A DNA stretch of 64,000 nt, taken from the NCBI RefSeq assembly GCF_014217875.1, contig NZ_CP059060.1, positions 248,001 through 312,000 of the forward strand, read 5' to 3'. A model generated the notes under the pieces. It was given only the letters and a program-made list of their open reading frames with translations. It had not been told where the DNA came from and ran no database searches. Shown one piece after another: positions 43,020-60,585 of the stretch; the stretch's first letter is position 1, and every line of letters starts with the position of its first letter. Both the position numbers and the translations under genes were made by a program. Origin of the DNA: Synechococcus sp. LTW-R (lineage in GTDB: Bacteria; Cyanobacteriota; Cyanobacteriia; PCC-6307; Cyanobiaceae).

Positions 43020-43028
43020 CCCCCAGTA

Positions 43029-45027: not shown

Positions 45028-45540
45028 CATGAACGACCTACCTGCAGAAGCAGATTGTTCGATCTCCCGAAGCTGGCTAGAAAAAGATCAAGCCTCCCAA
45101 GAAGCCATGAGCAACGCACGTGATCTCATCAACGCCCATCTTTACCCTGTGCTAGCGACAGCTGGCACCATTTTTCTTGCAATCGGAATGGTGAATGCCA
45201 TTCAGGTCAATCAAAAGATGTCCGCTATTGAGGAAGAGGCTAAGTACTTCAACCACTGTATAAAAGCTCATATCGAGGAAAACCCCAAATACCTGCTAGA
45301 TGAGATTGTTGTCCACTGCAACGGCAGCTACAGAGAACCAAAGACCTCTTTGGCTCAATAGTAGTTATCAACGAGAAGTGCGGCAGCAGTTGAGCACGAG
45401 GAAACAGCGGAGTTGAGTCACGGCGGTCTTTTCTTGACCGTCTGCTTACTGTGAAGGTGGTCAAACCTCGGAAATCCGAGGGATTGCAAAGGCTGACTTG
45501 ATTCTTGTGCTGACGCGATGCTCACTTTTGTGCGCACAAC
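44994..45540 (+). repeat. Duplication E, copy 2 (547 bp)
   Basis: Gapless match to 28738-29284 with one difference seen. It is inside element 1, next to the D5 terminator. Confidence 0.9.
45107..45361 (+). CDS. Small membrane-anchored protein, 84 aa, duplicate of 28851-29105
   Basis: Identical protein to the island copy; start MSNARDLINAHLYP chosen for the same reason. An upstream ATG at 45029 lies right behind the D5 terminator. Function unknown. Confidence 0.65.
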   Translation: MSNARDLINAHLYPVLATAGTIFLAIGMVNAIQVNQKMSAIEEEAKYFNHCIKAHIEENPKYLLDEIVVHCNGSYREPKTSLAQ

Positions 45541-45594
45541 CCGTTGCCGGGTCACTCAGGTTGCGGCAATTAATTTCACCCACGGAGTCTGTGC

Positions 45595-46473: not shown

Positions 46474-46610
46474 GACTTGAAATCCAAAAAACAGCAATTC
46501 GATGGTTCGTCGGGAGCATTAACTGCTGCCGCAGCACGAGCTATTCTCGGGTTCTAATTGACGGAAAGTGAGAGCGTATCCTGTAGGAATGTCTGCTGAC
46601 TTTGCATTGA

Positions 46611-46835
46611 TCAGTTTGTTTTATTCTGGTCCGTTTCTTCTTCAGCAGCCCGTTGCTCTTCCTCCCACGCATCTATGGCCCTTGTGGAGATAGTCGCAAG
46701 CAGTGATCCGTCTGCACTTCTGAGAAAGACTGATCCAACACCAAGGGAACTCTGCTCAGTACTTACAGACTCTCTGCTTTCAACTCTTCCAATTTCTAAT
46801 GCGAACAAGGTCGCCTTCTCTACTAGTGAATTCAT
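46611..46835 (-). CDS. Small hypothetical protein, 74 aa
   Basis: MNSLVEKATLFALEIGRVES, VFLRSADGSLLATISTRA, then an acidic helix (WEEEQRAAEEETDQ). Reads as a real short gene; family not recognised. Confidence 0.5.
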   Translation of the reverse strand: MNSLVEKATLFALEIGRVESRESVSTEQSSLGVGSVFLRSADGSLLATISTRAIDAWEEEQRAAEEETDQNKTN

Positions 46836-46864
46836 GCTCTGTTGATGATGTGGTCCATGGAAGA

Positions 46865-47233
46865 CGAAGGCCGCCCCTCCCCGGTGGAAGAGACGGCCTA
46901 CCTAGGTCGTTCATGCATGGGATGCACCCACTGCTTGATGGACGAAAGAGATGGATGGAGCTTCTGATCTCGACGCCTGGGGCCGAGCTTCCAGTTGGCG
47001 GGCCTTCTTACTCCTTAGGGCACCTCACTGGGTGCGGATGGAGTGTCCCCCGGCAGAACCGAGATTTAGGACGTGCCCGTGGTGGATGAGAAAGAACTGT
47101 GGAGCAGGGGTCTGCAGTCAGCTAGCTCACTGATGCTTCTGAGGTGGAGTGTCGTCCAAAACGCCTCCGAGATCGATGAACCCACCATCGACCTGATTCG
47201 AACAGACGGCAATCAGGCTTTATGCGCATTGCC
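46865..47233 (+). repeat. Family-A structured repeat, copy A3
   Basis: About 369 bp inside element 1. Opening AAGGCCGCCC...GACGGCCTAC hairpin; closing GGCAATCAGGCTTTATGCGC followed by ATTGCC. Compared with A1 and A2 the loop of the closing hairpin varies but the 6-bp outer stem is kept. Confidence 0.7.
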
Positions 47234-47419
47234 TTTTATGGCCAGACCTCCGATAGTCAGGACAGCGTGCCTGGAGTGGGAGGCCGCTCAGAGGCTCAGA
47301 TGAGCGTTCCCCCTTCAGGCACGCTGAAAGCTTCGCTGCAATGCAGGACGCGATCGCCTGACTTACTTGTCTGGGACTGGGTTTTCAGTGGATGAGGTGG
47401 CCTTCACGTCGCCTTTTTC

Positions 47420-47671
47420 TTGCTCTTTTGCATCGACCATGGGCATTCTGGCTGCAGCCGCTTAAAGGCCTTGCTTCGCCTACTCATCGGGATCGGAGTC
47501 AGCTTGCTGCCTTTACAGTTGTGGTCGCACCCAAAGGGCATGTATCCATCACAAGCGGAGGCTGCCAAAAGAGCTCAAGAGCTTGGATGCGAAGGCACCC
47601 ATATGAACGAATGGAAATGGATGCCATGCCTTGATGAGGCCTCGCTCCACCAAGCATTGCGAAAACAGTGA
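47420..47671 (+). CDS. DUF3721 protein, element 1 copy
   Basis: 83 residues from TTG 47420, matching 38913. LLIGIGVSLLPLQLWSH, QAEAAKRAQELGCEGTHMNE, KWMPC. It follows a hairpin with a T-run. Overlaps the next gene by 4 bp. Confidence 0.7.
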   Translation: MLFCIDHGHSGCSRLKALLRLLIGIGVSLLPLQLWSHPKGMYPSQAEAAKRAQELGCEGTHMNEWKWMPCLDEASLHQALRKQ

Positions 47672-47919
47672 ATCTTCGACGTGTCCATCGAGTGATCGTG
47701 CCTGTGGCAGCGGTACCACTCCTTGTTACTTCTCTTTCAGGCTCTGTCTACAGCGGCCTGCTTGACCAAGGAATCGATGCCTTCTGGCTGCTAAAGCTGC
47801 ATACCGGTCGATTCGGACCAATTAACTTGCAGCCCTACTACTCAGTGATTCTTGGCTTATTAACAATTGCCTTGATTGTCTCTGGTGTGTCACTAATCTT
47901 GCCTAAACGAAGAACTTAA
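47668..47919 (+). CDS. PepSY-TM-like membrane protein, element 1 copy, 83 aa
   Basis: Nearly identical to 39161 with five fewer residues at the C-terminus. VIVPVAAVPLLVTSLSGSVY and DQGIDAFWLLKLHTGRFG. GTG start. Confidence 0.7.
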   Translation: MNLRRVHRVIVPVAAVPLLVTSLSGSVYSGLLDQGIDAFWLLKLHTGRFGPINLQPYYSVILGLLTIALIVSGVSLILPKRRT

Positions 47920-48057
47920 AAAGTTCTGAGTAGGCGAAGACGGTTTGAGATGGGTCCTTCTAACCTTGATGCATGAGGGTGATCCGAAGGCGCACGGTTC
48001 ATCTAGCGTCAGCGCAAAATTCCTTAGGCTGGTTTAGGCGCTGAGATTTAGCGAATA

Positions 48058-48411
48058 GTGGCCATTGAGAGCATTGCAGCGGCAGCACGAGAACTCGGAT
48101 ATCGGAGTCGCTCAAGCCTTCAGAATTTGATGGATGACGGCTACCTGGATGACTTCATTTCACTGAATGAGAGGGGGCATCGGCAGCTAGAGATGAACGG
48201 ACTACGGGAGCGTGTCGCTCAGGTGGTGAATTGGAGTGACCGGAACGTGGTCGCTAAGGAAAGGCTTAGCCGCATTGACCTAGAGACGATCCTCAGGATT
48301 GGGGACTACTGCAACGCGCTATGCGAGGAATACGGTTGGAAGACGCGTCATACGGCAGCGGAGTGGCTGCTGTTGGAGGAGGCAATGCAGAAGGCAAGGC
48401 GTGCTGTGTAG
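48058..48411 (+). CDS. Hypothetical helix-turn-helix-like protein, element 1 copy
   Basis: 117 residues, near-identical to 39552 except the last residues. GTG start. A family-B repeat follows by 8 bp, unlike copy 1. Confidence 0.65.
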   Translation: MAIESIAAAARELGYRSRSSLQNLMDDGYLDDFISLNERGHRQLEMNGLRERVAQVVNWSDRNVVAKERLSRIDLETILRIGDYCNALCEEYGWKTRHTAAEWLLLEEAMQKARRAV

Positions 48412-48418
48412 CCATGTC

Positions 48419-48528
48419 AATTCCCCGACCCACTGCTCAGTAGCGGGGAGTGTTGAGGTGGGGGAGCTTGGCACTCCCCCGTCTCGGATCACGGGGTTCT
48501 CTCGGACCGTGTCCTCAGCGGTTATGGC
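48419..48528 (+). repeat. Family-B structured repeat, copy B13
   Basis: TTCCCCGACCCACTGCTCAG, then the consensus second and third stems, and the end AGCGGTTATGGC. The 5' AACAG end is replaced. It lies between F2 and the minus-strand gene at 48592, inside element 1. Confidence 0.85.
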
Positions 48529-48591
48529 CTTGGTGTTGCCGTCAATGCAAGGGGCAGCCAAAAAGGGCCGTCAGGCCCGCAAAGTTCATGG

Positions 48592-48933
48592 TTAGAACTT
48601 TCTGGGGTATGGGGTCTGACCGGCCATCTCCACGTCAATCTCGCGGCAGATGTTCATCCAAGCGTTCAACCCAAAGTTCACGCCATTTGGTCCATCAATA
48701 AACTCTTGAAATTCTTCAGCAGAAATGCCGTCCCTTACTTCCCAGATACAAAAGGCAGGCCCCTCGGGGCCAACTGGACAGAAGGAGTGGTTATAGAAGC
48801 CGGCCTCCAAGTTCATTGCTACGGCAGCGTCCCAGCCACCGCCGGGAGCCATAGCCGCTTGTGCTTTCTCCCACCATGAATGAGCTTTTCCTGCTCGGAA
48901 TTCATGGTGTACGTGGAAAAACTTAGAGGCCAT
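48592..48933 (-). CDS. Hypothetical protein, 113 aa
   Basis: MASKFFHVHHEFRAGKAHSW, NLEAGFYNHSFCPVGPEGPA, FCIWEVRDGISAEEFQEFID. A ferredoxin-like alpha/beta pattern is possible. No family recognised with confidence. Confidence 0.65.
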   Translation of the reverse strand: MASKFFHVHHEFRAGKAHSWWEKAQAAMAPGGGWDAAVAMNLEAGFYNHSFCPVGPEGPAFCIWEVRDGISAEEFQEFIDGPNGVNFGLNAWMNICREIDVEMAGQTPYPRKF

Positions 48934-49190
48934 CGAGCGGTTGCAACTGTGTGATTATCGCCCTTGGACGGTAGGAATCAGGCTTAGGCATCCGCCGGAA
49001 CCGTGTCCTTGGTGGTTGTGGCCTTGGTGCCGCCGTCAGTGCAACGGGGTGGCGCATCCACTAGGACGAGCCTGGCGGTAAGGACCGACCAGATTCGTGG
49101 GACGCACTAGTTCAGTGTGTCCACGGCCCTTGAAGTGTTCAACGGCGCATGAGGTGTTGTTGCCGATCCAACTGCTTGCTTTTTAGGGCG

Positions 49191-49200
49191 TTTGCCCACG
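49191..49200 (+). other. Arm-type repeat, element 1 right
   Basis: TTTGCCCACG, as in 41401-41422. It lies in the loop of an inverted repeat (CTTTTTAG/CTAAAAAG) 30 bp from the att site. Confidence 0.55.
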
Positions 49201-49230
49201 CTAAAAAGGCGTAATAGCTGAGAAATCAAT

Positions 49231-49273
49231 CGGGGCGACAGGATTCGAACCTGCGACCTAGTGCTCCCAAAGC
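49231..49273 (+). other. Attachment-site copy 2 (tRNA-Pro 3' half)
   Basis: 43 bp identical to the tRNA 60513-60555 (CGGGGCGACAGGATTCGAAC onward). It is shared as the right end of element 1 and left end of element 2. Confidence 0.9.
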
Positions 49274-49381
49274 GACAGCGTGAAGGTCTGAGACTCCAGT
49301 AAAACCCTGTCCCAGACTGCAGTGATGGCAAGGGATAAGAGAGAAGAGACTCCAGCAGATTCCAAGGCGTTCCGGGCAGTC

Positions 49382-49438
49382 TTCGCAAATTTTTCGCAAA
49401 ATCCGGTACGCTTCCGACCCAGTGGCCCTTTTTGCGAA
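49382..49438 (+). other. Arm-type repeats, element 2 left
   Basis: TTCGCAAA at 49382 and 49393 and the inverse TTTGCGAA at 49431. The same octamer clusters at the right end. Confidence 0.6.
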
Positions 49439-49480
49439 AAACCGCGAATGGGGAGCGCGGAGGCTGAGTCACGCCCATTC

Positions 49481-50743
49481 ATGTCTGAATCTGATTTCGA
49501 GGCCGCGTTCCGTAGGGCAATCAAACGGACGTGCGGAGCTGGCTGGTATGTCCGCGAGTCATCCGGTCGCATCCGCCTGGACGTTCGAGGAGAGAAGGGC
49601 TTGACCCTGGACCTCAAGTGGAACCAAGAGGGCGCCGATCGAGCTCTCCCCCGTATTCAAGAGATCTTTAAGCGCTTCGCCGCTGGAGCCGCTTCCTTGG
49701 CTGAGGCAGCAAACCTCACCAACACGGCTAGCAGCGAGCAAGACATTGACCTGCAAGAGCTGGTCGAGACATGGCGAAGGACAAAGCCGAACACCTCTGA
49801 CGCGACATTCGACAAGGACCACCGCCCGTCAATCAACAACGCGCTTCGTCTGCTCGCGAGCAAGAACCCGCCCCCTGATGGCGAGAGGTTGTGTGAGGCG
49901 GCTCTCGCTCAGTGGAGTGGAACCTCTCAGGCGCTCAAGCGTCAGCAGCGCTCGCTTCGTTACTTCCTGGAATGGGCGGTCAAGAGAGGAGCGCTCAAGC
50001 CGCGCTATCTCCCCGGCACTCCCCTCACGATCAAGGCTCCCGACAAGAAGACCGGCTATCCCCTCTCTGACGCTCAGATTCTCAGGTTGCTCGATTCAAT
50101 CCAGACCGAGGTCACCGGGAACAGTGGTCACAGCTTGCGCGATGTGGAGGCAGCAAAGCGCTGGAAGTTCGCCATTCAGTTGGCTGCCGTCTACGGGCTG
50201 CGGCCAGAGGACCTGAATTGGTTGACGGTCAAGCAGGGACCAGAGGGACCTGAGCTGTGGTCGATGTACCGCAAATCCAAAGGGGGCATCCACGGCAAAA
50301 GGACGAAGGAAAGGCGACTCGCTCCTCTCTTCGTTCGTGATTTGGACGGGACCCCACTGGACTGGAACCTCTTGGGTCGCTTCCAGCTCGGCGAGAAACT
50401 CCCGTCCCTTGGCCCGACTGGACTTGGCAAACCCATGACTGACAAGAAAGGAGAGCCTGTCGAGTCGGTCGCTGCTGATCGGCTGAAGACGTATCTGAGT
50501 CGGCGGCCTGTGTGGAAACAGCTAGTGGCAGAAGGCGCGCTCTTAGGCGAGACCTGTACGGCCTACTCCTTCCGCCATCGCTTCGTGAAGGAGAGCTATG
50601 CCGCTGGCTTTGATCGCATCCAGATCAGTGAGATGTGCGGTCATACCGTTGACGTTCACGATCGGAACTACGCCCGGTTCCAGCCAAGTGGGACTGCCAA
50701 GGCCTATGCCAAAGCGAACGAAGGCGCGGTCATGGCCGTCTGA
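49481..50743 (+). CDS. int: Tyrosine recombinase (integrase) of element 2
   Basis: 420 residues from ATG 49481, which aligns with the start of the element 1 integrase; ATG 49322 or 49451 would run through the arm repeats. Catalytic Arg in AVYGLRPEDLNWLTV, then SFRHRFVKESYAAGFDRIQI, EMCGHTVDVHDRNYARF with the Tyr nucleophile. Tyr replaces the first His of HxxR as in element 1. N-terminal arm-binding region resembles that of element 1 (GWYVRESSGRIRLDVR). Confidence 0.9.
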   Translation: MSESDFEAAFRRAIKRTCGAGWYVRESSGRIRLDVRGEKGLTLDLKWNQEGADRALPRIQEIFKRFAAGAASLAEAANLTNTASSEQDIDLQELVETWRRTKPNTSDATFDKDHRPSINNALRLLASKNPPPDGERLCEAALAQWSGTSQALKRQQRSLRYFLEWAVKRGALKPRYLPGTPLTIKAPDKKTGYPLSDAQILRLLDSIQTEVTGNSGHSLRDVEAAKRWKFAIQLAAVYGLRPEDLNWLTVKQGPEGPELWSMYRKSKGGIHGKRTKERRLAPLFVRDLDGTPLDWNLLGRFQLGEKLPSLGPTGLGKPMTDKKGEPVESVAADRLKTYLSRRPVWKQLVAEGALLGETCTAYSFRHRFVKESYAAGFDRIQISEMCGHTVDVHDRNYARFQPSGTAKAYAKANEGAVMAV

Positions 50744-50937
50744 TTTTTTTCGGCTGCTGTGTTTTCAAGCGCTAACTGGATAAGCACCAAATAAGGGGAC
50801 TGATGGGCTCAAGGGCTGTCTCCAGCACGATTCGTGATGTCTGCGCATCGATGCCAGCAAGAGCCTGGAACTGGTCTGGACAAAGCTCAACTCGCGATAA
50901 TGCGGAGCTTGATCTCATTTGTCTCCTAAAGAAATCC

Positions 50938-51471
50938 ATGAAGGCTTCGCGTTTTGGGCACCTGTGTTCAGCTGCCTTGCGACAGAGCTTGGTTGGAGCC
51001 TTCGTGGTCGTCTCGCTGCTTTCGGCGATTCAGCCGGTTCAAGCGCACGGTGATGTGGGAGATGATGCCGCGATGCCCGTCACCAGTGGTGCGACCTGGC
51101 CACAGATAACGGTGTATCGATCGGCGAGTTGCGGTTGCTGTACGTCATGGGTATCCCACATCGCTTCAGCGGGATATCGCATTGAGGACCATGTCACCGA
51201 GGACATGGATGCCGTGAAGAAGGCGCGTGGTGTCAGTCCGCAACAGGCTTCTTGTCACACCGCTGTGGTGGAGGGATACGTGATCGAAGGGCATGTGCCT
51301 GCTTCTGCGATCCACCGTGTTTTGTCGGAACGGCCCAATATCCGTGGCCTGGCAGTTCCAGGGATGCCAATGGGTTCCCCTGGGATGGAAGTGGCAGGCG
51401 TTGAGGCTGAACGTTTCGAGGTGCTCGCTATTGCCCATGACGGAACAACCTCCGTCTTTGCGCGCTACTGA
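50938..51471 (+). CDS. DUF411 periplasmic metal-binding protein
   Basis: 177 residues with a signal peptide (LVGAFVVVSLLSAIQPVQA). The family motif is present: YRSASCGCCTSWVSHIASAG, ACHTA-type SCHTAVVEGYVIEGHVPASA, VPGMPMGSPGME. DUF411 proteins accompany copper-resistance systems; the Cys-x-Cys-Cys and Met-rich loop are candidate Cu sites. ATG 50938 preferred over 50803. The second DUF411 is at 55383. Confidence 0.85.
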   Translation: MKASRFGHLCSAALRQSLVGAFVVVSLLSAIQPVQAHGDVGDDAAMPVTSGATWPQITVYRSASCGCCTSWVSHIASAGYRIEDHVTEDMDAVKKARGVSPQQASCHTAVVEGYVIEGHVPASAIHRVLSERPNIRGLAVPGMPMGSPGMEVAGVEAERFEVLAIAHDGTTSVFARY

Positions 51472-51506
51472 GCGGTTTCAGGGAGACCGCTACAGAGAAC
51501 GAGGTG

Positions 51507-51776
51507 TCATCGCGATGGCTTCAAGAGCATTGCCGCACCTGAGATGGTCACGATGACGGTGAGCCCACCCAAGAGCATTGGATAGACGGGCTGAAGGTTC
51601 AGAACACCGAAATTTCCGGTGTGGATCTTGAGCAGCCAAAAGGCATCAATGCCTTGCTCTAAGAGCAAGCTGTAGAGAGATCCCGTGCCGGCGGTGATCA
51701 GCAAAGGCAGAGCGGCTATTGGAACCAGCCAACGATGAACCTTGCGTGCTCGCCTTGAAAGTTGTCGTTGGCTCAT
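51507..51776 (-). CDS. PepSY-TM-like membrane protein, copper-block copy
   Basis: 89 residues, third member of the family at 39161 and 47668. KVHRWLVPIAALPLLITAGT, EQGIDAFWLLKIHTGNFGVL. About two-thirds identical by eye. Last gene of a DUF305-DUF3721-PepSY operon. Confidence 0.75.
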   Translation of the reverse strand: MSQRQLSRRARKVHRWLVPIAALPLLITAGTGSLYSLLLEQGIDAFWLLKIHTGNFGVLNLQPVYPMLLGGLTVIVTISGAAMLLKPSR

Positions 51777-52024
51777 TGCTTGCGCAGTTGGCGGTGGAGT
51801 TCACGCTCATCCACGCAGGGCATCCACTTCCCGTTGTTCTGATGCACCGACTTGCAACCAAGCTCAACGGCACGTTGCTCTGCTTCAGCTTTGGATTGGT
51901 AGATGCCTTTGCCGTGACCATGGCTTGCCACCGGGTACACAGCAAAGGCAGCAATGACGGCATACGGGATTGAGCCCCAACCGATCATCCTTTTGATGGA
52001 GGCATTGAAGACGTTGGCTCTCAT
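51773..52024 (-). CDS. DUF3721 protein, copper-block copy
   Basis: 83 residues: hydrophobic IGWGSIPYAVIAAFAVYP, GHGKGIYQSKAEAEQRAVEL, GCKSVHQNNGKWMPC. Exported. ATGA overlaps link it to both neighbours. Co-transcription with DUF305 ties the DUF3721/PepSY pair to metal handling. Confidence 0.75.
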   Translation of the reverse strand: MRANVFNASIKRMIGWGSIPYAVIAAFAVYPVASHGHGKGIYQSKAEAEQRAVELGCKSVHQNNGKWMPCVDERELHRQLRKQ

Positions 52025-52743
52025 AGGGCAAAGAGGTCGTCAAATTTGTAGTAAGCAGGTTTATTCAGTCCTCCGCTTTGCAGCATCTTGCGGAGTTCGA
52101 TGATCTCTTTGCGCTGGGCGACGATGATCTCGCGCGCCAGGCGAAGGACGGTGGGGTTGGTGGAGTTTTGCCGAGCCTCATGGGCCATCTGAAGGGCGCC
52201 TCCATGGTGCTCAATCATTCCCTCTAAGAACCACTGCACCCTGTTGTCGCGCGTTGGCTTCGTTCCCGACATGCGCATCGCGGCAATCACATCAGGACTC
52301 ATGCGCACCAGATCTGCCATGGAATTGGGGTCCCCGTTAGGGCGCAATGCCACGGGATAAACCGGTGCATCCGGATACCAGGCTTTGCGCCATTGGCGCA
52401 TCGCCTTGATCTCACGGGCCTGCTCGTTCCAGATGCTGTTTGCCAACGCCCCCACTCCAGGGGCGCCGATGTTGAAGACGTATTCACTCATCCGCAATGC
52501 ACCCGTGTGGTGCTCCACCATTCCGTCGATGAAGCGCAGGTCGTAAGTGCTGCCTGCGGGGCCCATGCCATGGGCATGGTGCTGATGGTTGCCGGAATGG
52601 TCGGGTGCAGCCTCTTTCGTTTTTGCAGGTGCTGGGTGATGCATTCCATGGCCGTGATGGCCATGGTGATGATCCATTTGGGCCAATGCGACTTGAGGGG
52701 GCAGTGCCGAGATGGCGGCCAGAGCAAAAGCGATCCGACGCAT
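52021..52743 (-). CDS. DUF305 metal-resistance protein
   Basis: 240 residues with signal peptide (FALAAISALPPQVALAQ), a His-rich linker (MDHHHGHHGHGMHH), and two DUF305 repeats (FIDGMVEHHTGALRMSEYV and FLEGMIEHHGGALQMAHEA). Ferritin-like helical bundle; the HH motifs are candidate metal ligands. ATG 52743 chosen because it lies past the probable transcription start. First gene of the operon, divergent from the MerR gene. Confidence 0.85.
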   Translation of the reverse strand: MRRIAFALAAISALPPQVALAQMDHHHGHHGHGMHHPAPAKTKEAAPDHSGNHQHHAHGMGPAGSTYDLRFIDGMVEHHTGALRMSEYVFNIGAPGVGALANSIWNEQAREIKAMRQWRKAWYPDAPVYPVALRPNGDPNSMADLVRMSPDVIAAMRMSGTKPTRDNRVQWFLEGMIEHHGGALQMAHEARQNSTNPTVLRLAREIIVAQRKEIIELRKMLQSGGLNKPAYYKFDDLFAL

Positions 52744-52764
52744 GGAAAGATCAATCACGTCGCT

Positions 52765-52795
52765 ATTGTTGAGTCTCCAGTAGGGGGAGAGTCAA
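52765..52795 (-). promoter_or_regulatory. MerR-family operator/promoter of the DUF305 operon
   Basis: On the minus strand: TTGACT, a 19-bp spacer holding CTCC...GGAG dyad, then AACAAT. The 19-bp spacer and the dyad (CTCTCCCCCTACTGGAGAC) are those of CueR/MerR-type promoters. The regulator gene starts 6 bp away on the other strand. Confidence 0.75.
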
Positions 52796-52801
52796 CCCTT
52801 C

Positions 52802-53182
52802 ATGCTCAAAGCGCCTGGCGATCTACTCAAGATTGGAGCCGTCTCTGCAAGAAGCAACATTTCGGTGAAAACGATTCGTTTTTATTGTGATGAAGGTTTA
52901 TTGGTACCAGTATCACGAACCGATTCCAGATATAGATTGTTTGACGAGTCTGTCTTTGCCGATCTTGGTCTAATCCTTCGTTTGCGGGCCATGGACTTGC
53001 CTCTTGATTTGGTGAAACAAGTAATTCAGGCACAGCGATCTGGAATCTGTACCTGCAGTGATCTCAAGGCCACGATGCGCGAAAAACTAAGCGAGATTCA
53101 TGAGCGCGTGGATGAATTGAAGGCGCTGGAGGCTGAGATCAAAATGATGTTGAAAAGCTGGGAGCCCTGTGGCGGGGCTTGA
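52802..53182 (+). CDS. MerR-family metal regulator, CueR-like
   Basis: 126 residues: winged helix (KIGAVSARSNISVKTIRFYC, YRLFDESVFADLGLILRLRA), dimerisation helix, and metal-loop Cys (SGICTCSDLK) plus a second Cys near the C-terminus (WEPCGG). The spacing suits a Cu(I)/Ag(I)-sensing CueR-type protein or a divalent relative. Divergently transcribed from DUF305; likely controls both operators at 52765 and 55884. Confidence 0.85.
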   Translation: MLKAPGDLLKIGAVSARSNISVKTIRFYCDEGLLVPVSRTDSRYRLFDESVFADLGLILRLRAMDLPLDLVKQVIQAQRSGICTCSDLKATMREKLSEIHERVDELKALEAEIKMMLKSWEPCGGA

Positions 53183-53206
53183 TCAGTTGTACGAGTATCA
53201 AAGTGT

Positions 53207-54631
53207 TCAGGCTTCAATCAAAATATTTCCCATCATGCCGAGATCTTCGTGATCAAAAACGTGGCAGTGATAAACACTTTTTCCTGCAAAGTCGTTGAAG
53301 CGGGTGCGCACTCGTACAGTTTCTCCAGATCGAACGAGCACTACATCGCGCCAGGCCCTGTATGGCTCAGGCCTGCCATTACGACTGATCACCTGCATCG
53401 GATTCACATGCAGATGGAAGGGGTGATCCATCACGCCTGTGTTCACCAGCTCCCAGTCTTCTGTTTCTCCCAATCGAACGCGAGTGTCGATACGAGCATG
53501 GCTGTATCTCTCTCCGTTGATCAGAAAGGCCATGCCCATGCTTGGCACCATTCCGTGATTCATCACAAATCTGCGGGTACGTACCGGGCTCGAGAGCTCC
53601 TCCACTCGTAAGAGACGCTGGGGTAAGGGCTGCGGCGTTACAGCACCGTTGGTGCTGACAGTTGCGACGACGTCAGCTTGGTGCTGGTCAGTCACCGGCC
53701 TGTGCATCCCCATCCCTGGTCGGCCTAGACGCCTGTAGGGGAGGTTGTGCAAGCGAAACCGACCGCCCTCGGGAGCCACCTGTACCAACACATCGGTACG
53801 TTCACCAGGCACTAGCAATAACTCCTGCAGCGGCACCGGTTGTTCGAGGGCACCACCATCGGTGGCGATCAGATGCATGGTGTGACCTTCTAGCGCTAAT
53901 CGCCAGAAGCGGGCATTGGAGGCGTTAAGGAGGCGCAGCCGCAGCAGACCTCCGGCAGCAACCTGCAGCTCGGGGTTCACCTGGCCGTTCACGCTCAGAA
54001 TCGAGCCTTCTCGGCCAAGCATCACACCGGAACCGGAACCCTCGTTGGCGGCAAGAAGATCCTTAAGCACCAGCACTTCTTCCTGCGCCGCCTGCACTTC
54101 AGGGATGCGATCAAGCTCACCTCTCACCAGCAACGCGCCACCTAAACCGCCAAAAACCTGATCAGCGACAGTCCCATGGTGATGGGGGTGGTAATAGAAA
54201 AGACCTGCTGGGTGATTGTCCGGCAATGTGAAGCTGTAGCTCTGCTTCTGGCCAGGAGTCACCCTTAAAAACACATTGTCAGCGGTTCCGTTGGGAGGAA
54301 TGTGCAGGCCGTGGAAGTGCAGATTCGTCGGATTCTTCAGGCGGTTATGCAGCTCGAGCTGAACTAGATCACCAGGTTCCAGCTCAAGCTGGGGACCTGG
54401 GAGTAATCCGTTGTAGGTAAGTGCCCGCCTTGATGTGCCCGGGATGCTGATGGGCATTTCCTGAGCCACTAGGTCCAGCTTCAGCAGGCCTGCTTTGGAG
54501 CGCACCACCGACGTTGCTGCCGGGTTGATACCCCGCTGTGGACGTGCAGACCACGCATGGCGTAGTCCCCCGGCTGACGCCGCCGCAGCGCCACCGGCTG
54601 CCAGAGCGAGAAAGGAGCGCCGGCTGATCAC
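53207..54631 (-). CDS. Periplasmic multicopper oxidase, CueO-like
   Basis: 474 residues. Tat signal (ISRRSFLALAAGGAAAASAGG), cupredoxin domains with all copper motifs: LHFHGLHIPPNG, YYHPHHHG, HPFHLHVNPMQ and YHCHVFDHEDLGMM. Oxidises Cu(I) or organic substrates in the periplasm. A Met-rich insertion is only weak (PGMGMHRP). GTG start overlapping the upstream gene's stop. Confidence 0.9.
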   Translation of the reverse strand: MISRRSFLALAAGGAAAASAGGLRHAWSARPQRGINPAATSVVRSKAGLLKLDLVAQEMPISIPGTSRRALTYNGLLPGPQLELEPGDLVQLELHNRLKNPTNLHFHGLHIPPNGTADNVFLRVTPGQKQSYSFTLPDNHPAGLFYYHPHHHGTVADQVFGGLGGALLVRGELDRIPEVQAAQEEVLVLKDLLAANEGSGSGVMLGREGSILSVNGQVNPELQVAAGGLLRLRLLNASNARFWRLALEGHTMHLIATDGGALEQPVPLQELLLVPGERTDVLVQVAPEGGRFRLHNLPYRRLGRPGMGMHRPVTDQHQADVVATVSTNGAVTPQPLPQRLLRVEELSSPVRTRRFVMNHGMVPSMGMAFLINGERYSHARIDTRVRLGETEDWELVNTGVMDHPFHLHVNPMQVISRNGRPEPYRAWRDVVLVRSGETVRVRTRFNDFAGKSVYHCHVFDHEDLGMMGNILIEA

Positions 54632-55386
54632 AACGCGCCTCCAGAAGCCTGAGCCATCCCTGACGGGATCAACATGGCCAGCCCCATCAGCCCCATGATC
54701 AGATTTTCAGCGAAGCTCACTACGCCCAGCGGTGTGCGTGAGTTGCCGCCTACACAGGCACAGTTCAGAGCCAGGTGATCCACGAACACGGCTTTTCCGA
54801 CGGACACCATGCCCATCACGCCGAGAACCAGTGCTGTCACTCCAACCAAGGCGTTCAGCCCCATAGCCTCCGCGTGTCGCAGCATCCCAAGACCCACCAA
54901 GAGTTCTACGCCGGGATACAGCTTTCCCCAGACGCGCCAACGCTTTGTGAGCAGGTCGTATTTGCGGAAGCTTGCAGCAAATGCCGCAATATCCATCAGT
55001 TTGAGCATCGCCAACAGGCAGATCGCCAGGCCCATGAAGCTGCGAATTCCGCCTCCCAGTGCAAGGTTGATCAACACAGCACTGAGGAACACAGCGATCA
55101 CCGGTGCGTAGGACACCTCTGCTGTCTCGGCGGCAACACCAAGCCGTTTCGCCAACTCGCTGTAACCGCCAATCCGCTCCACACCGGCGAACACCTGCGG
55201 CGTAGTAGTCACACCGTGAGCATGCTTAAAAGCCTCTACCTCCGCCTGGCTGCGCAGAGGACGGTCCTCAAACGGAATCCCCTCGGCGCGCAGGAGCGCA
55301 AGTGCGCGACGTCCCCATGGACAGGCGTGCTCAGGCGTCTCCATCCGGTAGAGGCGTACAGAGCTGAGTGCCGGCTCAGCCATCAC
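54628..55386 (-). CDS. Glutaredoxin-MauE/DoxX-type fusion membrane protein
   Basis: 252 residues. N-terminal glutaredoxin-like domain (YRMETPEHACPWGRRALALL, TTPQVFAGVERIGGYSEL) with CPWG in place of CPYC, joined to a four-helix MauE-like membrane domain (VIAVFLSAVLINLALGGG, GKLYPGVELLVGLGML, DHLALNCACVGG). MauE relatives help disulfide formation or metal insertion. Sits between DUF411 and the multicopper oxidase with overlaps on both sides: one operon. Confidence 0.85.
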   Translation of the reverse strand: MMAEPALSSVRLYRMETPEHACPWGRRALALLRAEGIPFEDRPLRSQAEVEAFKHAHGVTTTPQVFAGVERIGGYSELAKRLGVAAETAEVSYAPVIAVFLSAVLINLALGGGIRSFMGLAICLLAMLKLMDIAAFAASFRKYDLLTKRWRVWGKLYPGVELLVGLGMLRHAEAMGLNALVGVTALVLGVMGMVSVGKAVFVDHLALNCACVGGNSRTPLGVVSFAENLIMGLMGLAMLIPSGMAQASGGAL

Positions 55387-55862
55387 CCTTCACCCTTCAC
55401 CGCCTGGAAGGGTTGGGTTCGTCCGGATGCAGTGAACGTGAACACCGTGTAGCTCTCCTTTTTTAAAGGTGACTCCATACCGGGCGAACCAAGCGGCATG
55501 CCGGGAACAGCGATTCCGGCGACCTTCGGACGTTCTTTCAGTAGCCGCTGAATTGCTGACACGGGAATGTGCCCCTCAACGGTGTACCCACCAATCCGGG
55601 CGGTATGACAGGACTGCATCTGATCTGGCACTCCGTAGCGCTGTTTGACGCTCCCGATGTTGTCCGTCACGTAGTCCTTCACCGTGAAGCCGGCTTTTCT
55701 GAGGTGGTCAAGCCAGCCTTTGCAGCATCCACAAGCAGAGGATCGATAGCTAGTGACCACGATCGGTGTGCTTAGTCCTGATGTTGGGGCGGATCGCGCG
55801 GGGAGGGAGCCAATGATGCCGCTAGTAACGGCGACCAAAGCAAAAACACTCGAAGCAAGCAA
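55383..55862 (-). CDS. DUF411 periplasmic metal-binding protein, first gene of the copper-oxidase operon
   Basis: 159 residues from TTG 55862 with a signal peptide (VFALVAVTSGIIGSLPARS), YRSSACGCCKGWLDHLRKAG, SCHTARIGGYTVEGHIPVSA, VPGMPLGSPGME. Just upstream, an ATG in a different frame follows seven A, so a slippage site or an assembly indel is possible. Under a MerR-type promoter. Confidence 0.85.
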   Translation of the reverse strand: MLASSVFALVAVTSGIIGSLPARSAPTSGLSTPIVVTSYRSSACGCCKGWLDHLRKAGFTVKDYVTDNIGSVKQRYGVPDQMQSCHTARIGGYTVEGHIPVSAIQRLLKERPKVAGIAVPGMPLGSPGMESPLKKESYTVFTFTASGRTQPFQAVKGEG

Positions 55863-55883
55863 AACAGAAGTGCATTTTTTTCA

Positions 55884-55914
55884 AAAATAAACTCTCCAGT
55901 TACTGGAGAGTCAA
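55884..55914 (-). promoter_or_regulatory. MerR-family operator/promoter of the DUF411-Grx/MauE-oxidase operon
   Basis: TTGACT, 19-bp spacer with perfect dyad (ACTCTCCAG...CTGGAGAGT), TATTTT. Same geometry as 52765-52795, so one regulator probably serves both. Confidence 0.75.
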
Positions 55915-56485
55915 TCCCGAGAGGGCGACTCCCTTGTCGCCTTAACCGATGAGGCTTTAGTTAGAGCTTTGCAGCGTTGATTGATTGCAGCTGTTTCTGA
56001 CCCTTGGCCAGTGTCGCGCTGAGTTTGCCGCTGACTATTGCTGTTGCTGCATCTCCTGCTGACGCTTGGCCAGCGATGCGGTGAACTTGGCGTTGGCGGC
56101 ACCAAAGGCAGCATCTAGGCCAGCCTCATCAATCCATCGCTCGGAAGACCTTAGAGCTGAACGCCGGAGGTTTTCTGGAGCCAGATGGCGTTGACGGGGA
56201 CCAGCTTCAAGAAGCTCTCATGCTGTCTTTACTCCATCTTCCCGTCAAAAGTCTTCGTTAGTTCGAAAAATCTTCAAGCAGCCCTGCGACCCCAAGAGCC
56301 GTCGCCTCGATGTTCATGGCACCCTCCAAGGCTTTGCAGGCCGCGGCCAGCAGGAGTCCACGCACGGTCAGTGGTCGACTTCCGCCATTTTGCACCCGGC
56401 AGCCTATTGGGGCGCGTAGTTTTCTCGGGTCGTAATCGTTATTGCATTGAATGCGAATCGTTATCTCCGTTTGATTAGCTGGTGG
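55915..56485. other. Decayed DNA; no intact gene
   Basis: A minus-strand frame reads ERWIDEAGLDAAFGAANAKF, TASLAKRQQEMQQQQ and extends upstream as RHLAPENLRRSALRSS, but no start codon is present. It may be the end of a lost gene. No repeat family recognised. Confidence 0.4.
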
Positions 56486-56803
56486 TTACCCCAGAATTTG
56501 CACCAGTTCAGCCTGCAAGCGGATACTCCCGATCACGCTGCCCATCTGGTTGCTGCGGAGTGCCTTGGCCTGTACCTCATCCAGCAAAGCCAGCTTGCTA
56601 GCAATGAAGTCCTGGCGGTTGATCGACATATCGGCCTTCAACTGCTCTCTGGCCTTGGCGACATAGGCCTCAGCCTGACGCTTCTGGACCCCGTAGTTTT
56701 CCGCGCAGAATCGCAGGAGCTCAGACGTTCTGGCACCGCCGATCAAGAGCTTCGCGAGCTCGTCGACTCGGCGATCACTCTCCTCAGCTGTGACTCGTGC
56801 CAT
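56486..56803 (-). CDS. Terminase-small-subunit-like protein
   Basis: 105 residues. N-terminal helix-turn-helix (AKLLIGGARTSELLRFCAEN, YGVQKRQAEAYVAKAREQL) and a C-terminal helical region, the build of phage TerS proteins of the small 'HTH' type. In satellites TerS redirects packaging of helper-phage capsids to the element. Assignment from layout and context, not from a match; another HTH regulator is possible. Confidence 0.5.
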   Translation of the reverse strand: MARVTAEESDRRVDELAKLLIGGARTSELLRFCAENYGVQKRQAEAYVAKAREQLKADMSINRQDFIASKLALLDEVQAKALRSNQMGSVIGSIRLQAELVQILG

Positions 56804-56972
56804 CGCTATCAGTCTGCCAACTCAAATGAGTGGCCACTGTTTTCACTATTGCAGGGGTGGGGCACTGGGGCGCTGGGGCGGAGGTGTTCCTATGTTTCCC
56901 CCCGGATGTTGCCCCTATATCCCCTCTTTCTAGAGATCCTCTCTATCTACTGCCCCTACTGCCCCTAAGGGG

Positions 56973-58319
56973 TTAGAAGTCAGATACAGCCTGCTGGGCA
57001 GAGGGCTGGGGCGCTGCTGGGGCAGAAGAGGGGCGGTGCCAGACAGTTGCCTTGTCATGGCGGTCTCCGTTGGGCAGATACCCGCGCCGGCGTTCTTGTG
57101 ATTTGGTCCAGCCGAGCTGACCGAGACGCAGTGCCACCTGACGAGAGAACTCAGGGTCGCGCAACCTGTCCGGCTGCAGTTGGTAGATGAGTACCGGCAT
57201 TGCCAGCGAATCGACTTCAGGGTTGTCCTCCATCCACGTCTCGATCTGATCGCGCAGCGGGTCATCGGCGGCGTAGCTGAGCGCTGCCTTGCTGATCTGC
57301 TCGTTCTCCTCTGCCTGGTAGTGCCATGGGGTGCCTGCTCTGTAAGCAGCAAGGGCTGACCCCCAGATCTCATCGCGGTGATCTTTGGCCCATTGCGTGT
57401 TCACCTGATCCACGCTGATCACAGGGAAACGGCGGTTGCCGGTTGGGTCCTTGATGAAGTCCGAGCGGTTGGTGGTGCCGACAATCCCGCATGAGCGCAG
57501 CAGGGTCTCAACGCCGCGGCCGTAGGGCTTGCGGACGTCATCGCGGGTTGTGGAGAGGAACTTCTTGAGGGTCTCCGACTCGCGCTTGCCAACGACTGCG
57601 TCGATCTCACCCCACTCATGAATCCAAGCGGAGTGGAGTTGGAGGACGTCGTCCTTGAGGTTGCGCAGGTCACCGAGTGAATCGCTGAACCACTGGCCGC
57701 CAAGGATTGCCCAGAGGGTCGACTTGCCGATGCCCTGCTGTGGGCTGTGGATGACCAGCGCGGTGTCGAGCTTGCAGCCGGGTTGCATGGCTCTTGCCAC
57801 CAGTCCGATCAGTTGGCGCTGCAGGTGCAGGTGTGCCATCGGATCAGAGAGCCCGAAGAGCTCGTAGGCGAGCGCGTCCCATTGCTGGGGCTCGAGCTGA
57901 GTGGTGAGAGATCCGAGGTAGTCACGGACGGGATGGAAGGAGTGCTGGCGAGCGACCAAGGTGGCGGCGTCTATAGCCCTCTCCTTGGCGACTTCGATTT
58001 GGAACTGCTCAGCTAGTTGGAGGTAGAGGGTTCCAAGGAAGTCCCCGTCGATCGGCTTCCCGTCGTTTTCAATCCGCTGAGTCAGCAGGTTGTACTTCAG
58101 CGGGAGGGTGAGCTCAGCCACCTTCCGGACTTGATCCACGCGGGGGCGCCGGAGCTTGCCGTCCTTGACCGGGCCCAGCAGGTCATCAACCGATTCAGCT
58201 GACTGCAGCTCGGCAGGGGTCAGGTTGGGGAGTGCGCGCAGCGGTCGCGGGGCATGCCGGTCTTGACGGATCAGCTGCCACTGCTTGATGTCTTCAAACT
58301 CGTGCTCGAGGTTGTCCAT
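56973..58319 (-). CDS. VapE/D5-type helicase (satellite replication protein)
   Basis: 448 residues. The VapE pattern is clear: HSFHPVRDYLGSL, Walker A in HSPQQGIGKSTLWAILGGQW, IHEWGEIDAVVGKRESETLK, FLSTTRDDVRKPYGR, GTTNRSDFIKDPTGNRRFPV. Superfamily III-like helicase found in phage satellites and islands, acting with a primase at the element's origin. Start overlaps the primase-like gene's end by one base. Confidence 0.85.
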   Translation of the reverse strand: MDNLEHEFEDIKQWQLIRQDRHAPRPLRALPNLTPAELQSAESVDDLLGPVKDGKLRRPRVDQVRKVAELTLPLKYNLLTQRIENDGKPIDGDFLGTLYLQLAEQFQIEVAKERAIDAATLVARQHSFHPVRDYLGSLTTQLEPQQWDALAYELFGLSDPMAHLHLQRQLIGLVARAMQPGCKLDTALVIHSPQQGIGKSTLWAILGGQWFSDSLGDLRNLKDDVLQLHSAWIHEWGEIDAVVGKRESETLKKFLSTTRDDVRKPYGRGVETLLRSCGIVGTTNRSDFIKDPTGNRRFPVISVDQVNTQWAKDHRDEIWGSALAAYRAGTPWHYQAEENEQISKAALSYAADDPLRDQIETWMEDNPEVDSLAMPVLIYQLQPDRLRDPEFSRQVALRLGQLGWTKSQERRRGYLPNGDRHDKATVWHRPSSAPAAPQPSAQQAVSDF

Positions 58320-58894
58320 TAGATGACCTCCCCGAGGTAGTAGGAGCGGAAGTGCTGCAGGTCATTGAGCTGCGCCTGGATTGAGCGGCGGTACCCCTCA
58401 AAGCGATCACGGTGACGCTCTGCCATCTCGGGCGCTTCACGCCAGAGCTGCTGGACCATGCCGCCAAGCAGGACTCCCCGCTCATGGGCGGCAGTGATCA
58501 GGGTGGTGGCCTCCCTCAGTTGATCTGGGGTGAGTGAGTGGAAGTCGGGTACGTCCCAAGCGCGCTGGAAGGCGTCGTAGAAACCGGACAGGGCTACGCG
58601 TGCAGCAGCGACATCGGCTTGCTTGCGGACAGCTTCCCTGGGGTGCGTGGAGGCTTGGAACCGTGGCCTGGGCCTGTGAGGTCGGAAGACTGCAGCAGCA
58701 CCATCGAACCCGCCCTTGCGGCTGGTGAGTGCCCACTCAGTGCCGTCGGCTTTGATTACATCGCCGATCTTGAGATTGCCGACTCCGTTCGTTGAGCCTT
58801 GGTGGCAGAAGATGATGTCATGCGCCCATGCGCAGTCGGTGTCCTTCGTCCTGCCGCATGCCGGGCAGGGGGACTTGGGACCAGAGCGGTGCAT
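58319..58894 (-). CDS. Primase-like zinc-finger protein
   Basis: 191 residues. N-terminal CPACGRTKDTDCAWAHDIIF followed by CHQG, a CHC2-like zinc ribbon. The rest is helical (VALSGFYDAFQRAWDVPDFH). Lacks a visible TOPRIM, so it may only present DNA to the VapE helicase. Directly upstream of it, overlapping one base. Confidence 0.65.
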   Translation of the reverse strand: MHRSGPKSPCPACGRTKDTDCAWAHDIIFCHQGSTNGVGNLKIGDVIKADGTEWALTSRKGGFDGAAAVFRPHRPRPRFQASTHPREAVRKQADVAAARVALSGFYDAFQRAWDVPDFHSLTPDQLREATTLITAAHERGVLLGGMVQQLWREAPEMAERHRDRFEGYRRSIQAQLNDLQHFRSYYLGEVI

Positions 58895-59178
58895 CAGGCA
58901 GCCTCCCTGTGCATGCGGTCGTTGAGATATGCCGCGATTGATTGATCGCGCTGGTCCGCTGACTCGCGGATTGCGTAGATCAGAGCAGCGGTTCTGTAAG
59001 TCTCTTTCTCTTCTTCGTCGAGGAAGTCCCAGTCAGGTGGAGTAGGGATAGGGACATCCCAGATTGTTTTCGGGACCGGCGAGAGGTGCTGGTGTGCCTT
59101 GTTTAGTCCGAGTCTTGCCTTGGCATGTGCAAGGTGACGCGAGGTGCCCTGGGCGGCCGGGCGCGAGTTTGATTGCAT
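58894..59178 (-). CDS. Hypothetical protein, 94 aa, in the replication operon
   Basis: KARLGLNKAHQHLSPVPKTI, WDVPIPTPPDWDFLDEEEKE, SADQRDQSIAAYLNDRMH. Acidic-helical C-terminus. First of three overlapping genes (with 58319 and 56973). Its start codon overlaps a TGTAAT promoter-like box, so a later start or a leaderless transcript is possible. Function unknown. Confidence 0.6.
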   Translation of the reverse strand: MQSNSRPAAQGTSRHLAHAKARLGLNKAHQHLSPVPKTIWDVPIPTPPDWDFLDEEEKETYRTAALIYAIRESADQRDQSIAAYLNDRMHREAA

Positions 59179-59410
59179 TACAATGAGTTCAGGTTTGTTA
59201 GCCCAAGTCGTCTGCGGAGGGAAGGCCGTAGGCGACTTTTTTGTGCCTTGTTGTTGGCGAGGGATCTCTTAAGTCTGGCGGGTTTAGAGAGTGGAACAGG
59301 CGCACTAATCCACCAATCGGGGTCAACCCCAAGGGGGTGAAAGTGCGACTCGGGAGGGTTCTTAGTCTTTGAAGGTGGCGGTGAGTCACCCCGTCCACAA
59401 CCTCCTCCAA

Positions 59411-59638
59411 ATGTCCACTCAGTTCGAGTCAGCCCTAAGAGAGCAAGCCCAGTTCGCCGCGATGAACTTGGCGGCACTGGATCTCTGTCTCTCCCTGGAT
59501 CAGAGCCACCCCGAAGAGGGCAAGCTGACCCCAGAGGCCATTGGGCTGGCATACGCCTCCGTAGCGCGTCTGATGCCGTACCTGCTGGTCGAGGCGCTTG
59601 ATCTGGAGACTGCCGCGGCCCACCGCTTAGAGGTCTGA
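59411..59638 (+). CDS. Small helical protein, 75 aa
   Basis: MSTQFESALREQAQFAAMNL, CLSLDQSHPEEGKLTPEAIG, LMPYLLVEALDLETAAAHRL. Divergent from the replication operon. Possibly an element regulator (inference). About 230 bp of intergenic DNA before it likely holds the divergent promoters. Confidence 0.6.
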   Translation: MSTQFESALREQAQFAAMNLAALDLCLSLDQSHPEEGKLTPEAIGLAYASVARLMPYLLVEALDLETAAAHRLEV

Positions 59639-59641
59639 CGC

Positions 59642-59809
59642 TCACTCCACCTCCGGCCCTTCAAAGAGGCGGCGCTCGAGTGCTTCAGCCCTGTGGTGGC
59701 AGTCGTTGGCATAGCGGACGTAGCCCTGCTGGGCCCACCAATGGGCGCGGGTGCGTTCCCAGTTGAGGGCGGCGGGCAGGTGCTCGTACTTAAGGAGTGT
59801 TCTTCCCAT
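59642..59809 (-). CDS. Small hypothetical protein, 55 aa
   Basis: MGRTLLKYEHLPAALNWERT, AHWWAQQGYVRYANDCHHRA, EALERRLFEGPEVE. Trp/Tyr-rich helical. Stop 3 bp from that of the convergent gene; starts 4 bp after the excisionase-like gene ends. Function unknown. Confidence 0.55.
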   Translation of the reverse strand: MGRTLLKYEHLPAALNWERTRAHWWAQQGYVRYANDCHHRAEALERRLFEGPEVE

Positions 59810-59813
59810 TTCC

Positions 59814-60128
59814 CTATGCCTCCGTAGGGGTATGGGTCCTTGGCATGACTGATTGGTCGAAGATCTCGATTCGATCAGCCTTCCCTGCGGTCGCCTTGGT
59901 CCGCTGAAGGTCTTGGCTCGCCACGATCCGGCGAGTGCTTTCGATCTGCCATGCCCGAATGGCAGGCGCGTTCCACAGGACAGGGCTCTGCGGTTTCCCT
60001 GTTTGGTAGATCCAGTGGACTCCTGGTTCGAGTTCTCTGGCGCTTTGCAGTGCGCGGAGAGTGCTCAGGCCGATGCCTGTGGACTTCGCCGCAAGGTCAG
60101 CGGGGACCCATTCCTCTTGGTTGTTCAT
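59814..60128 (-). CDS. Excisionase/AlpA-like DNA-binding protein of element 2
   Basis: 104 residues: WVPADLAAKSTGIGLSTLRA, then LEPGVHWIYQTGKPQSPVLW, NAPAIRAWQIESTRR. Helix-turn-helix with 'PGxHW' wing, the same build as 43029. Adjacent to the right arm repeats, as expected for a directionality factor. ATG 60128 preferred. Confidence 0.7.
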   Translation of the reverse strand: MNNQEEWVPADLAAKSTGIGLSTLRALQSARELEPGVHWIYQTGKPQSPVLWNAPAIRAWQIESTRRIVASQDLQRTKATAGKADRIEIFDQSVMPRTHTPTEA

Positions 60129-60512
60129 TGAAGTGAAAGCAAGCCCCACCGCCGCCATTGCGGCCAGTGGATGAGTGGGGACTCACTGCCTCCGGATCAC
60201 ACGGCGTTAGCTCGAGGTGGCTCCTGTCGGAGCAATTCCGGGAGGGTTAGCTCGGGGGCCTGGCTCCCTTTGGGCTTGACCGCTGATCCGCCTTCGCGGC
60301 GGGGGACGGACAGGCACAGGAGACGGGCTCGATCCCTTGTCGCTCCGGAAGGCTATGCACCGTTCTGAGTGGCCGCAAACATTCGCGAACAGACGGGACC
60401 AGCGCGCATTTTTCGCAAAACGCCAGAGGGTTTGCGAAATAGGTCGCTCAACCCGGTGGCTTTTTCGCAGATTCTTCGCAAACTGGGGATGCCCGATTCG
60501 CGAGATCTCAGT
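60129..60512. other. Right end of element 2, no gene, arm-type repeats
   Basis: TTCGCAAA at 60412, TTTGCGAA at 60431, TTCGCAGA at 60464 and TTCGCAAA at 60475, mirroring 49382-49438. Likely integrase/excisionase binding region. Confidence 0.6.
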
Positions 60513-60585
60513 CGGGGCGACAGGATTCGAACCTGCGACCTAGTGCTCCCAAAGCACCCGCGCTACCAAGCTGCGCCACGCCCCG
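60513..60585 (-). tRNA. tRNA-Pro(UGG)
   Basis: 73 nt with acceptor stem CGGGGCG/CGCCCCG, D-arm GCGCAGCTTGGTAGCGC, anticodon loop TTTGGGA (anticodon TGG), and T-arm with TTCGAAT. CCA not encoded. Its 3' half is the attachment site for both elements; the gene itself is intact. Confidence 0.95.

Follow-up and report, generated by a model that had tools for sequence, protein, structure and literature searches.

We analysed a 64,000-nucleotide stretch (hereafter the window) of the complete 2.4-Mb chromosome of Synechococcus sp. LTW-R (G000:C1:248001-312000) and found in it an 11.3-kb element with the gene set of a mobile element, which we call element 2 (49230-60511). Element 2 is probably a helper-dependent integrative satellite of P-HS2-like siphoviruses that has captured a copper cassette. 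It begins with an integrase gene on the plus strand (from 49322), followed by eight copper-type genes (50803-55862) and then by minus-strand genes for a terminase small subunit (TerS) and a VapE-type helicase, a zinc-finger (Zn) protein, small genes and an excisionase-like gene. At the level of sequence, this reading is built on the element boundaries, the gene set, the homology and synteny of TerS, selection on terS, the occurrence of TerS without a detectable terminase large subunit (TerL), and the exchange of parts between elements. We infer TerS-directed packaging of the satellite from TerS homology and synteny.

The 105-aa protein is a homologue of a phage terminase small subunit

56486-56803, minus strand: TerS homologue, 105 aa; its homologue precedes TerL in cyanosiphoviruses and in 80/80 viral contigs

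An earlier sequence-only reading of this DNA had called the 105-aa protein TerS-like and the weakest link of a phage satellite. We found it to be homologous to a protein encoded at the terS position in a cyanosiphovirus, and no non-terminase family was matched. A Pfam search gave nothing better than E 0.13, and among PHROGs the protein matches phrog_34910 (E 6.6e-16), which is annotated 'unknown function'. The same PHROG is matched by 30 of the 31 members of our TerS family alignment A1, for which Pfam returned nothing sensible, and over its full length by the P-HS2 protein located before TerL (E 3.7e-72). In tblastn searches of phage records, the window TerS and its relatives L066 and L073 were each without a match. 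The relative L083 alone reached phages, namely the cyanosiphoviruses MED4-184, P-HS2 and MED4-117, near-identical records that we counted as one lineage. The link between the window TerS and the phages thus passes through the family via L083, and was then confirmed by PHROG and by pairwise alignment with the P-HS2 protein (36% identity over 101 aa, E 2e-20).

In the P-HS2 lineage, the TerS homologue overlaps by 4 nt a downstream gene with matches to Terminase_6N, Terminase_6C and the terminase large subunit PHROG (E 1.2e-39). This TerL is followed by a DUF4055 protein (PHROG portal, E 1.6e-116) and then by a Phage_Mu_F protein. Scanning viral contigs with the phage TerS gave 88 contigs, of which 80 were kept; these are mutually related rather than independent, and in all 80 TerL is positioned at most 400 nt downstream. 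One viral contig (L178) has the gene order VapE-TerS-TerL, with VapE just upstream of TerS. In the viral contigs closest to the TerS branch of element 2 (L100-L102), TerL is found 0.9, 3.4 and 3.8 kb downstream. The scan with the window TerS by itself returned 37 stretches, none of which was confirmed. By synteny, phrog_34910 gains a function, that of terminase small subunit.

The AlphaFold model of the protein contains four helices in a helix-turn-helix-like fold (pLDDT 89.4). In BFVD, its best fold match is an unnamed viral protein (E 2e-4), and annotated terminase small subunits appear only at E 0.8-1.6. A profile search of PDB sequences gave no match below E 0.1. We thus regard the predicted structure as neutral, with homology and synteny carrying the identification. 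A helical, helix-turn-helix-like protein that belongs to no named family could also be an unrelated regulator, in which case element 2 would be an ordinary tRNA genomic island. We consider this extremely unlikely, as the best viral-fold matches are viral proteins, the annotated small subunits among them scoring weakly, and as the homologue occupies the TerS position in the 80 viral contigs and in isolate phages. The assignment of the 105-aa protein as TerS now appears well supported. Faster divergence of the DNA-binding half of TerS was considered and rejected; window and phage proteins share 34% and 33% identity across the two halves.

Element 2 is bordered by copies of a tRNA-Pro 3' part

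49230-49273: left attachment repeat, 44 nt, a perfect copy of the tRNA-Pro(TGG) 3' part
60512-60555: right attachment repeat, 44 nt, within the tRNA-Pro(TGG) gene
60511-60585, minus strand: tRNA-Pro(TGG), the integration target (ARAGORN; Rfam RF00005)
49390-49441: putative integrase arm sites at the left end, two exact copies of TTTTTCGCAAA in opposing orientation
60409-60482: putative arm sites at the right end, four TTTTTCGCAAA-like copies, one of them exact

A third copy of the tRNA-Pro core (36 nt, 41266-41301) borders a neighboring element, element 1, and the three 3' copies (41266, 49230 and 60512) thus delimit two tandem elements at one tRNA. When one mismatch is allowed, TTTTTCGCAAA occurs six times in the 64 kb, every time just inside an end of element 2 (0.77 sites expected; 0/100 shuffles reached 6). 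These end sites look like recombinase arm sites. A clean empty site was not found: the tRNA-Pro of another genome of the genus (G092) has one attachment copy and no integrase within 19 kb, yet it is accompanied by other island genes.

Integration, replication and excision genes

49322-50743, plus strand: tyrosine recombinase (phrog_1, E 4.2e-15)
56973-58319, minus strand: VapE-type replicative helicase (PF05272, E 4.1e-63; phrog_1313, E 2.1e-62)
58319-58894, minus strand: Zn-finger protein, whose N-terminal motif is fused to VapE in L056
58894-59809: small genes orf94, orf155 and orf55 (minus strand) and orf89 (plus strand), between the Zn protein and the excisionase-like gene
59814-60158, minus strand: excisionase-like protein (phrog_539, E 7.8e-4, a weak match)

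The recombinase is 46-47% identical to the integrases of three related elements (L056, L070 and L072), and its match to Pfam Phage_integrase (E 0.039) falls short of the family cut-off. GLRPE, YSFRHR, GHT and a tyrosine are conserved in the alignment, which we take to be tyrosine-recombinase motifs. The true start is probably located at about 49440-49450, because two of the three aligned relatives begin near residue 40.

The sequence-only reading had also proposed a VapE-type helicase, a primase-like zinc protein and an excisionase-like protein. The first is borne out by Pfam. The zinc protein has no Pfam or PHROG match of its own and draws its support from L056, where a single 669-aa protein comprises the Zn N-terminal motif, at 50% over 32 aa, together with VapE, at 63% over 405 aa. 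Since the two form one protein there, the Zn protein and VapE of element 2 are probably a split primase-helicase, with the Zn part as the primase portion. The excisionase-like assignment stands with its weak PHROG match, and relatives of this protein adjoin a replication gene in L056, L057, L060, L070 and L072. No structural or lytic phage gene was matched among 18 element 2 proteins searched against Pfam and nine searched against PHROGs, and PADLOC found no defence system in ten element 2 proteins.

TerS occurs without TerL in picocyanobacterial genomes

We surveyed 300 genomes of the family, an even draw from the larger family, using a different E threshold for each protein. TerS relatives are present in 97 genomes (E<=1e-3, weak matches including prophage-like loci), recombinase relatives in 130 (E<=1e-40) and TerL in six (E<=1e-10, for the P-HS2 type that the survey covered). 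Forty TerS places were fetched: the 20 with the best E-values, two places in the LTW-R genome, others of the next ranks and some hand-picked weak matches. Six weak matches (L087-L092) were set apart; a portal-type match is found in four of them at E<=1e-4 and in all six at E<=1. The remaining 34 closer neighborhoods (L053-L086) contain an integrase or integrase fragment of the element 2 type in 22 cases (fragments in L064, L065, L073 and L080), an excisionase-like gene in 19, and VapE or a RepA-type ATPase in 21 (VapE 11, RepA 12, both in two), as counted with integrase, VapE, RepA, excisionase and Zn profiles that were built iteratively on these same loci. TerL is found in only one of the 34 (L078), leaving out a 74-aa open reading frame (ORF) in L085 with a TerL match at E 1.9e-4, and a portal in none. 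By comparison, 15 control loci centered on the copper oxidase, one spanning only 4.8 kb (L262) and one with an integrase about 7 kb outside (L260), contained no integrase, VapE, RepA or TerS and one excisionase-like match.

The LTW-R genome itself has three TerS relatives. No TerL was detected in it with the phage protein or with PF17289 and PF03237, the positive controls of both models having responded; a DUF4055 search, whose control did not respond, carries no weight. Any helper would thus have to be a phage that infects the cell from outside. Two TerS relatives of this genome, at about 126 kb (L073) and 1.27 Mb (L074), are located one near integrase pieces and the other near VapE pieces; these loci are perhaps older, decayed satellites.

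Related elements share the target tRNA and exchange parts

Three elements from other genera (L056, L070 and L072; 10.0, 11.9 and 12.8 kb) occupy the same tRNA-Pro with both attachment copies and share one order: tRNA, excisionase, VapE or RepA, TerS, cargo, integrase, attachment site. P-HS2-type TerL was not found in them. We listed the cargo ORFs of five relative elements and searched ten of these ORFs. The cargo includes a dehydrogenase-like protein (L056), a sodium/glutamate symporter (L057), an EamA transporter, an IS200-type transposase and a sulfotransferase (L070), and a protein with a weak beta-barrel match (L060); the remaining four searched ORFs had a weak match or none at 1e-3.

An element of the same genus (L053, in G092) shares DNA with element 2, with identities of 85% in terS, 80% in the Zn gene and 95% in the small genes (58890-59794). 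It carries a RepA-type ATPase in place of VapE, and its integrase and excisionase also differ from those of element 2. As judged by these sequences, the elements exchange replication, integration and cargo parts. Comparison of the two terS genes yields dN 0.084 and dS 0.584 (dN/dS about 0.10-0.14), which places terS, an intact gene, under purifying selection. The segment upstream of terS is conserved as well:

56804-56864, minus strand: terS leader, 61 nt, a candidate regulatory or packaging site

The leader is 100% identical in L053, despite the divergence of terS and a differing upstream gene. It contains a short palindrome. A role as a general packaging site was rejected, as a near-full match is present in 2/300 genomes only; the other genomes among the 182 matching at E<=1 gave short matches, among the matches listed.

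We calculated a TerS tree from 107 columns and 55 rows (without L064 and L097-L099), which is poorly resolved, with good support for 23 of its 52 inner branches. The window TerS groups with L053, and chromosomal and phage labels require at least three changes. These data bear on whether element 2 could be a decayed prophage that retained genes for integrase, replication and TerS and acquired those for copper handling. Those of its satellite-type genes that have any match do have phage relatives, and prophage-like loci with portals occur among the weak TerS matches. Element 2 is however devoid of structural-gene matches, its compact order recurs at the same tRNA in the three 10-13-kb elements described above, and most chromosomal TerS sequences branch outside the P-HS2-type phage group, the long-branched L077 falling inside in a tree of few columns. 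A prophage remnant thus appears very unlikely.

The copper cassette is mobile in its own right

50803-51471, plus strand: DUF411 protein (PF04214, E 1.5e-27)
51507-51776, minus strand: small PepSY-type membrane protein (PF03929, E 0.14, weak), conserved with the cassette
51773-52024, minus strand: DUF3721 protein (PF12518, E 2.5e-17)
52021-52758, minus strand: DUF305/CopM-type copper protein (PF03713, E 1.6e-29; NCBIfam CopM, 91.5 bits with a cut-off of 90)
52802-53182, plus strand: MerR-family metal-type regulator (CadR, ZntR and CueR models match, all below cut-off)
53207-54631, minus strand: multicopper oxidase with a Tat-like signal (nearest NCBIfam CueO, below cut-off)
54628-55386, minus strand: glutaredoxin-MauE membrane redox fusion (Pfam)
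55383-55862, minus strand: second DUF411 protein (PF04214, E 4.3e-27)

The eight genes of copper and metal handling seen in the sequence-only reading are confirmed, the PepSY member weakly; the DUF411 protein is presumably of a metal-binding type. Three loci of other genera (L254, L256 and L257) have the identical eight-gene order with 65-96% protein identity, and no integrase was found within the 20 kb fetched around them. The copper oxidase is present in 33/300 genomes (E<=1e-60). Four oxidases from other genera are 86-87% identical to that of element 2, as compared with 71, 71 and 57% for copies of the same genus and 86% for the same-genus G009. Since other-genus copies exceed most same-genus copies, this suggests horizontal transfer of the cassette.

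In G150, of the same genus (L215, L269), a seven-gene cassette is located at the same tRNA-Pro between attachment copies, in an element with an element-1-type integrase and RepA in which no TerS was found. G064, also of this genus (L260), has a seven-gene cassette about 16 kb from an attachment copy with integrase and about 70 kb from tRNA-Pro; its sole TerS relative is more than 1 Mb from the cassette. These arrangements mark the cassette as an independent mobile block that turns up recurrently near tRNA-Pro. It is joined to TerS in element 2 only, the other copies examined being without TerS. The earlier proposal of a satellite carrying copper resistance thus stands in part: TerS, integrase, replication module, tRNA attachment sites and the lack of structural genes and of TerL speak for the satellite, and the link between copper and TerS is seen in one element.

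The surrounding island

Element 1 (41266-49229) is arranged in tandem with element 2. Among its genes are an integrase (41414-42652), which shares 89% identity with an integrase of G092 (L221, 2.18-2.19 Mb), an excisionase-like gene (43029-43271) and a RepA-type ATPase (43443-44573), together with other cargo. In L221, element-1-type integrases accompany three copies of the tRNA-Pro 3' part at a distance of about 200 kb from the intact gene, which suggests that the G092 island was rearranged. In the window, 38803-39710 is duplicated at 47312-48216, with 81-94% identity across three blocks; judged by eye, both segments contain a DUF3721-like gene and a small PepSY-like membrane gene, resembling the pair in the copper cassette. 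A repeat family of about 100-150 nt is present at 23966-24112, 26027-26173, 31830-31976, 34455-34601, 38139-38234 and 48408-48554.

Discussion

In the mechanism that we propose, the recombinase and the excisionase-like protein would exchange element 2 at the tRNA-Pro(TGG) 3' part, as the attachment repeats and arm-like sites suggest. Once a P-HS2-like siphovirus has infected the cell, replication of the excised DNA would fall to the Zn/VapE enzyme. The satellite TerS may dock on the helper TerL and steer packaging toward satellite DNA, by analogy with the TerS of staphylococcal islands. In a new host, the recombinase would insert element 2 at tRNA-Pro. There the cassette, with its CopM-like protein, two DUF411 proteins, multicopper oxidase, glutaredoxin-MauE protein and MerR control, may buffer periplasmic copper, judging from the protein families.

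Tycheposons, in their founding study, are reportedly distinguished by a deep-branching hallmark recombinase clade and by hallmark genes. In excerpts of papers citing that work, tycheposons and VEIMEs (virion-encapsidated integrative mobile elements) are tRNA-bordered tyrosine-recombinase elements with cargo, some being proposed satellites (PMC10803314, PMC11389934, PMC10872708, PMC10187409), and a tycheposon size of 4-200 kb is given (as cited in PMC10872708). Element 2 shares with the tycheposons of Prochlorococcus the tRNA border, the tyrosine recombinase, cargo and a size within this range, and differs in that a TerS-bearing satellite module and a fitness cassette occur together in one element. 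On the basis of these excerpts, tycheposons are the cyanobacterial kind nearest to element 2. It could be a tycheposon-type element that moves mainly via vesicles, generalized transduction or natural uptake, with a TerS that was captured from a phage and either acts as an interference factor or plays no part in transfer. Recombinase relatives indeed outnumber TerS relatives in our survey (at differing thresholds), the G150 element has the cassette at this tRNA without TerS, and cyanophages mispackage host DNA (excerpts of PMC7852597). On the other hand, terS is intact under purifying selection and recurs with integrase, excisionase and replication genes across many elements, and we regard such a TerS-independent route as unlikely.

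Phage-inducible chromosomal islands (PICIs), which include the Staphylococcus aureus pathogenicity islands (SaPIs), share with element 2 an integrase at one end, excisionase and primase/replication genes starting from the opposite end, accessory cargo and a lack of structural genes, and some members also have TerS (excerpts of PMC6092414). Element 2 differs in its cyanobacterial host and copper cargo, in that no stl-, rpr- or alpA-type master regulator was recognised beyond a weak excisionase-like match and no interference gene was found, and in being slightly shorter than the typical ~12-15 kb, as compared with 10.0-12.8 kb for its relatives. The likeness is one of genes and their order, while a master regulator, interference and packaging would have to be presumed, and we thus do not file it as a PICI. 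In its probable mode of action, element 2 resembles PICIs, and it is probably a relative of tycheposons that has TerS. The phage-inducible chromosomal minimalist islands (PICMIs) of Vibrionaceae are likewise small marine satellites of virulent phages, in which, according to the excerpt of PMC10803314, the authors did not identify a terS homologue. P-HS2-like cyanosiphoviruses have a homologous TerS and differ in also encoding TerL, a portal and MuF; the 12 kb fetched contain no annotated integrase, most of the genes there being 'hypothetical' and few having been profile-searched. The CopM-type copper resistance of Synechocystis shares the DUF305/CopM protein (excerpts of PMC4335983); the eight genes of element 2 lack CopRS or copBAC-type genes and have MerR and a multicopper oxidase instead.

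Several observations weigh against a P-HS2-like helper and TerS-directed packaging. No Pfam family and no annotated PHROG names the 105-aa protein TerS, and the fold search against PDB gave a best E of 2.5, which is not significant. The window TerS is only 30-40% identical to phage TerS, and the helper may therefore be another phage than a P-HS2-like one. A viral-contig scan with the element 2 integrase, using two short patterns only, confirmed nothing, and no PICI-type master regulator, interference or capsid-size gene was recognised in element 2. P-HS2 infects Prochlorococcus MED4, has 490-bp terminal repeats and itself mispackages host DNA, and its packaging is called 'likely T7-like' (excerpts of PMC7852597), which fits poorly with a simple pac model.

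Among the papers that our search returned on phage satellites with copper resistance or in Synechococcus, none presents such an element, going by titles and abstract openings. Tentatively, and with not quite an even chance of being right, we suggest that element 2 belongs to a large, old family of TerS satellites of P-HS2-like siphoviruses in picocyanobacteria, in which the slot between terS and the integrase gene would be an exchangeable cargo bay, here filled with copper genes. If this is true, virulent cyanophages would be involuntary couriers of metal tolerance. Naming P-HS2-like siphoviruses as the probable helper group, along with one gene for deletion, opens a direct test of whether phage satellites transfer adaptive genes in picocyanobacteria.

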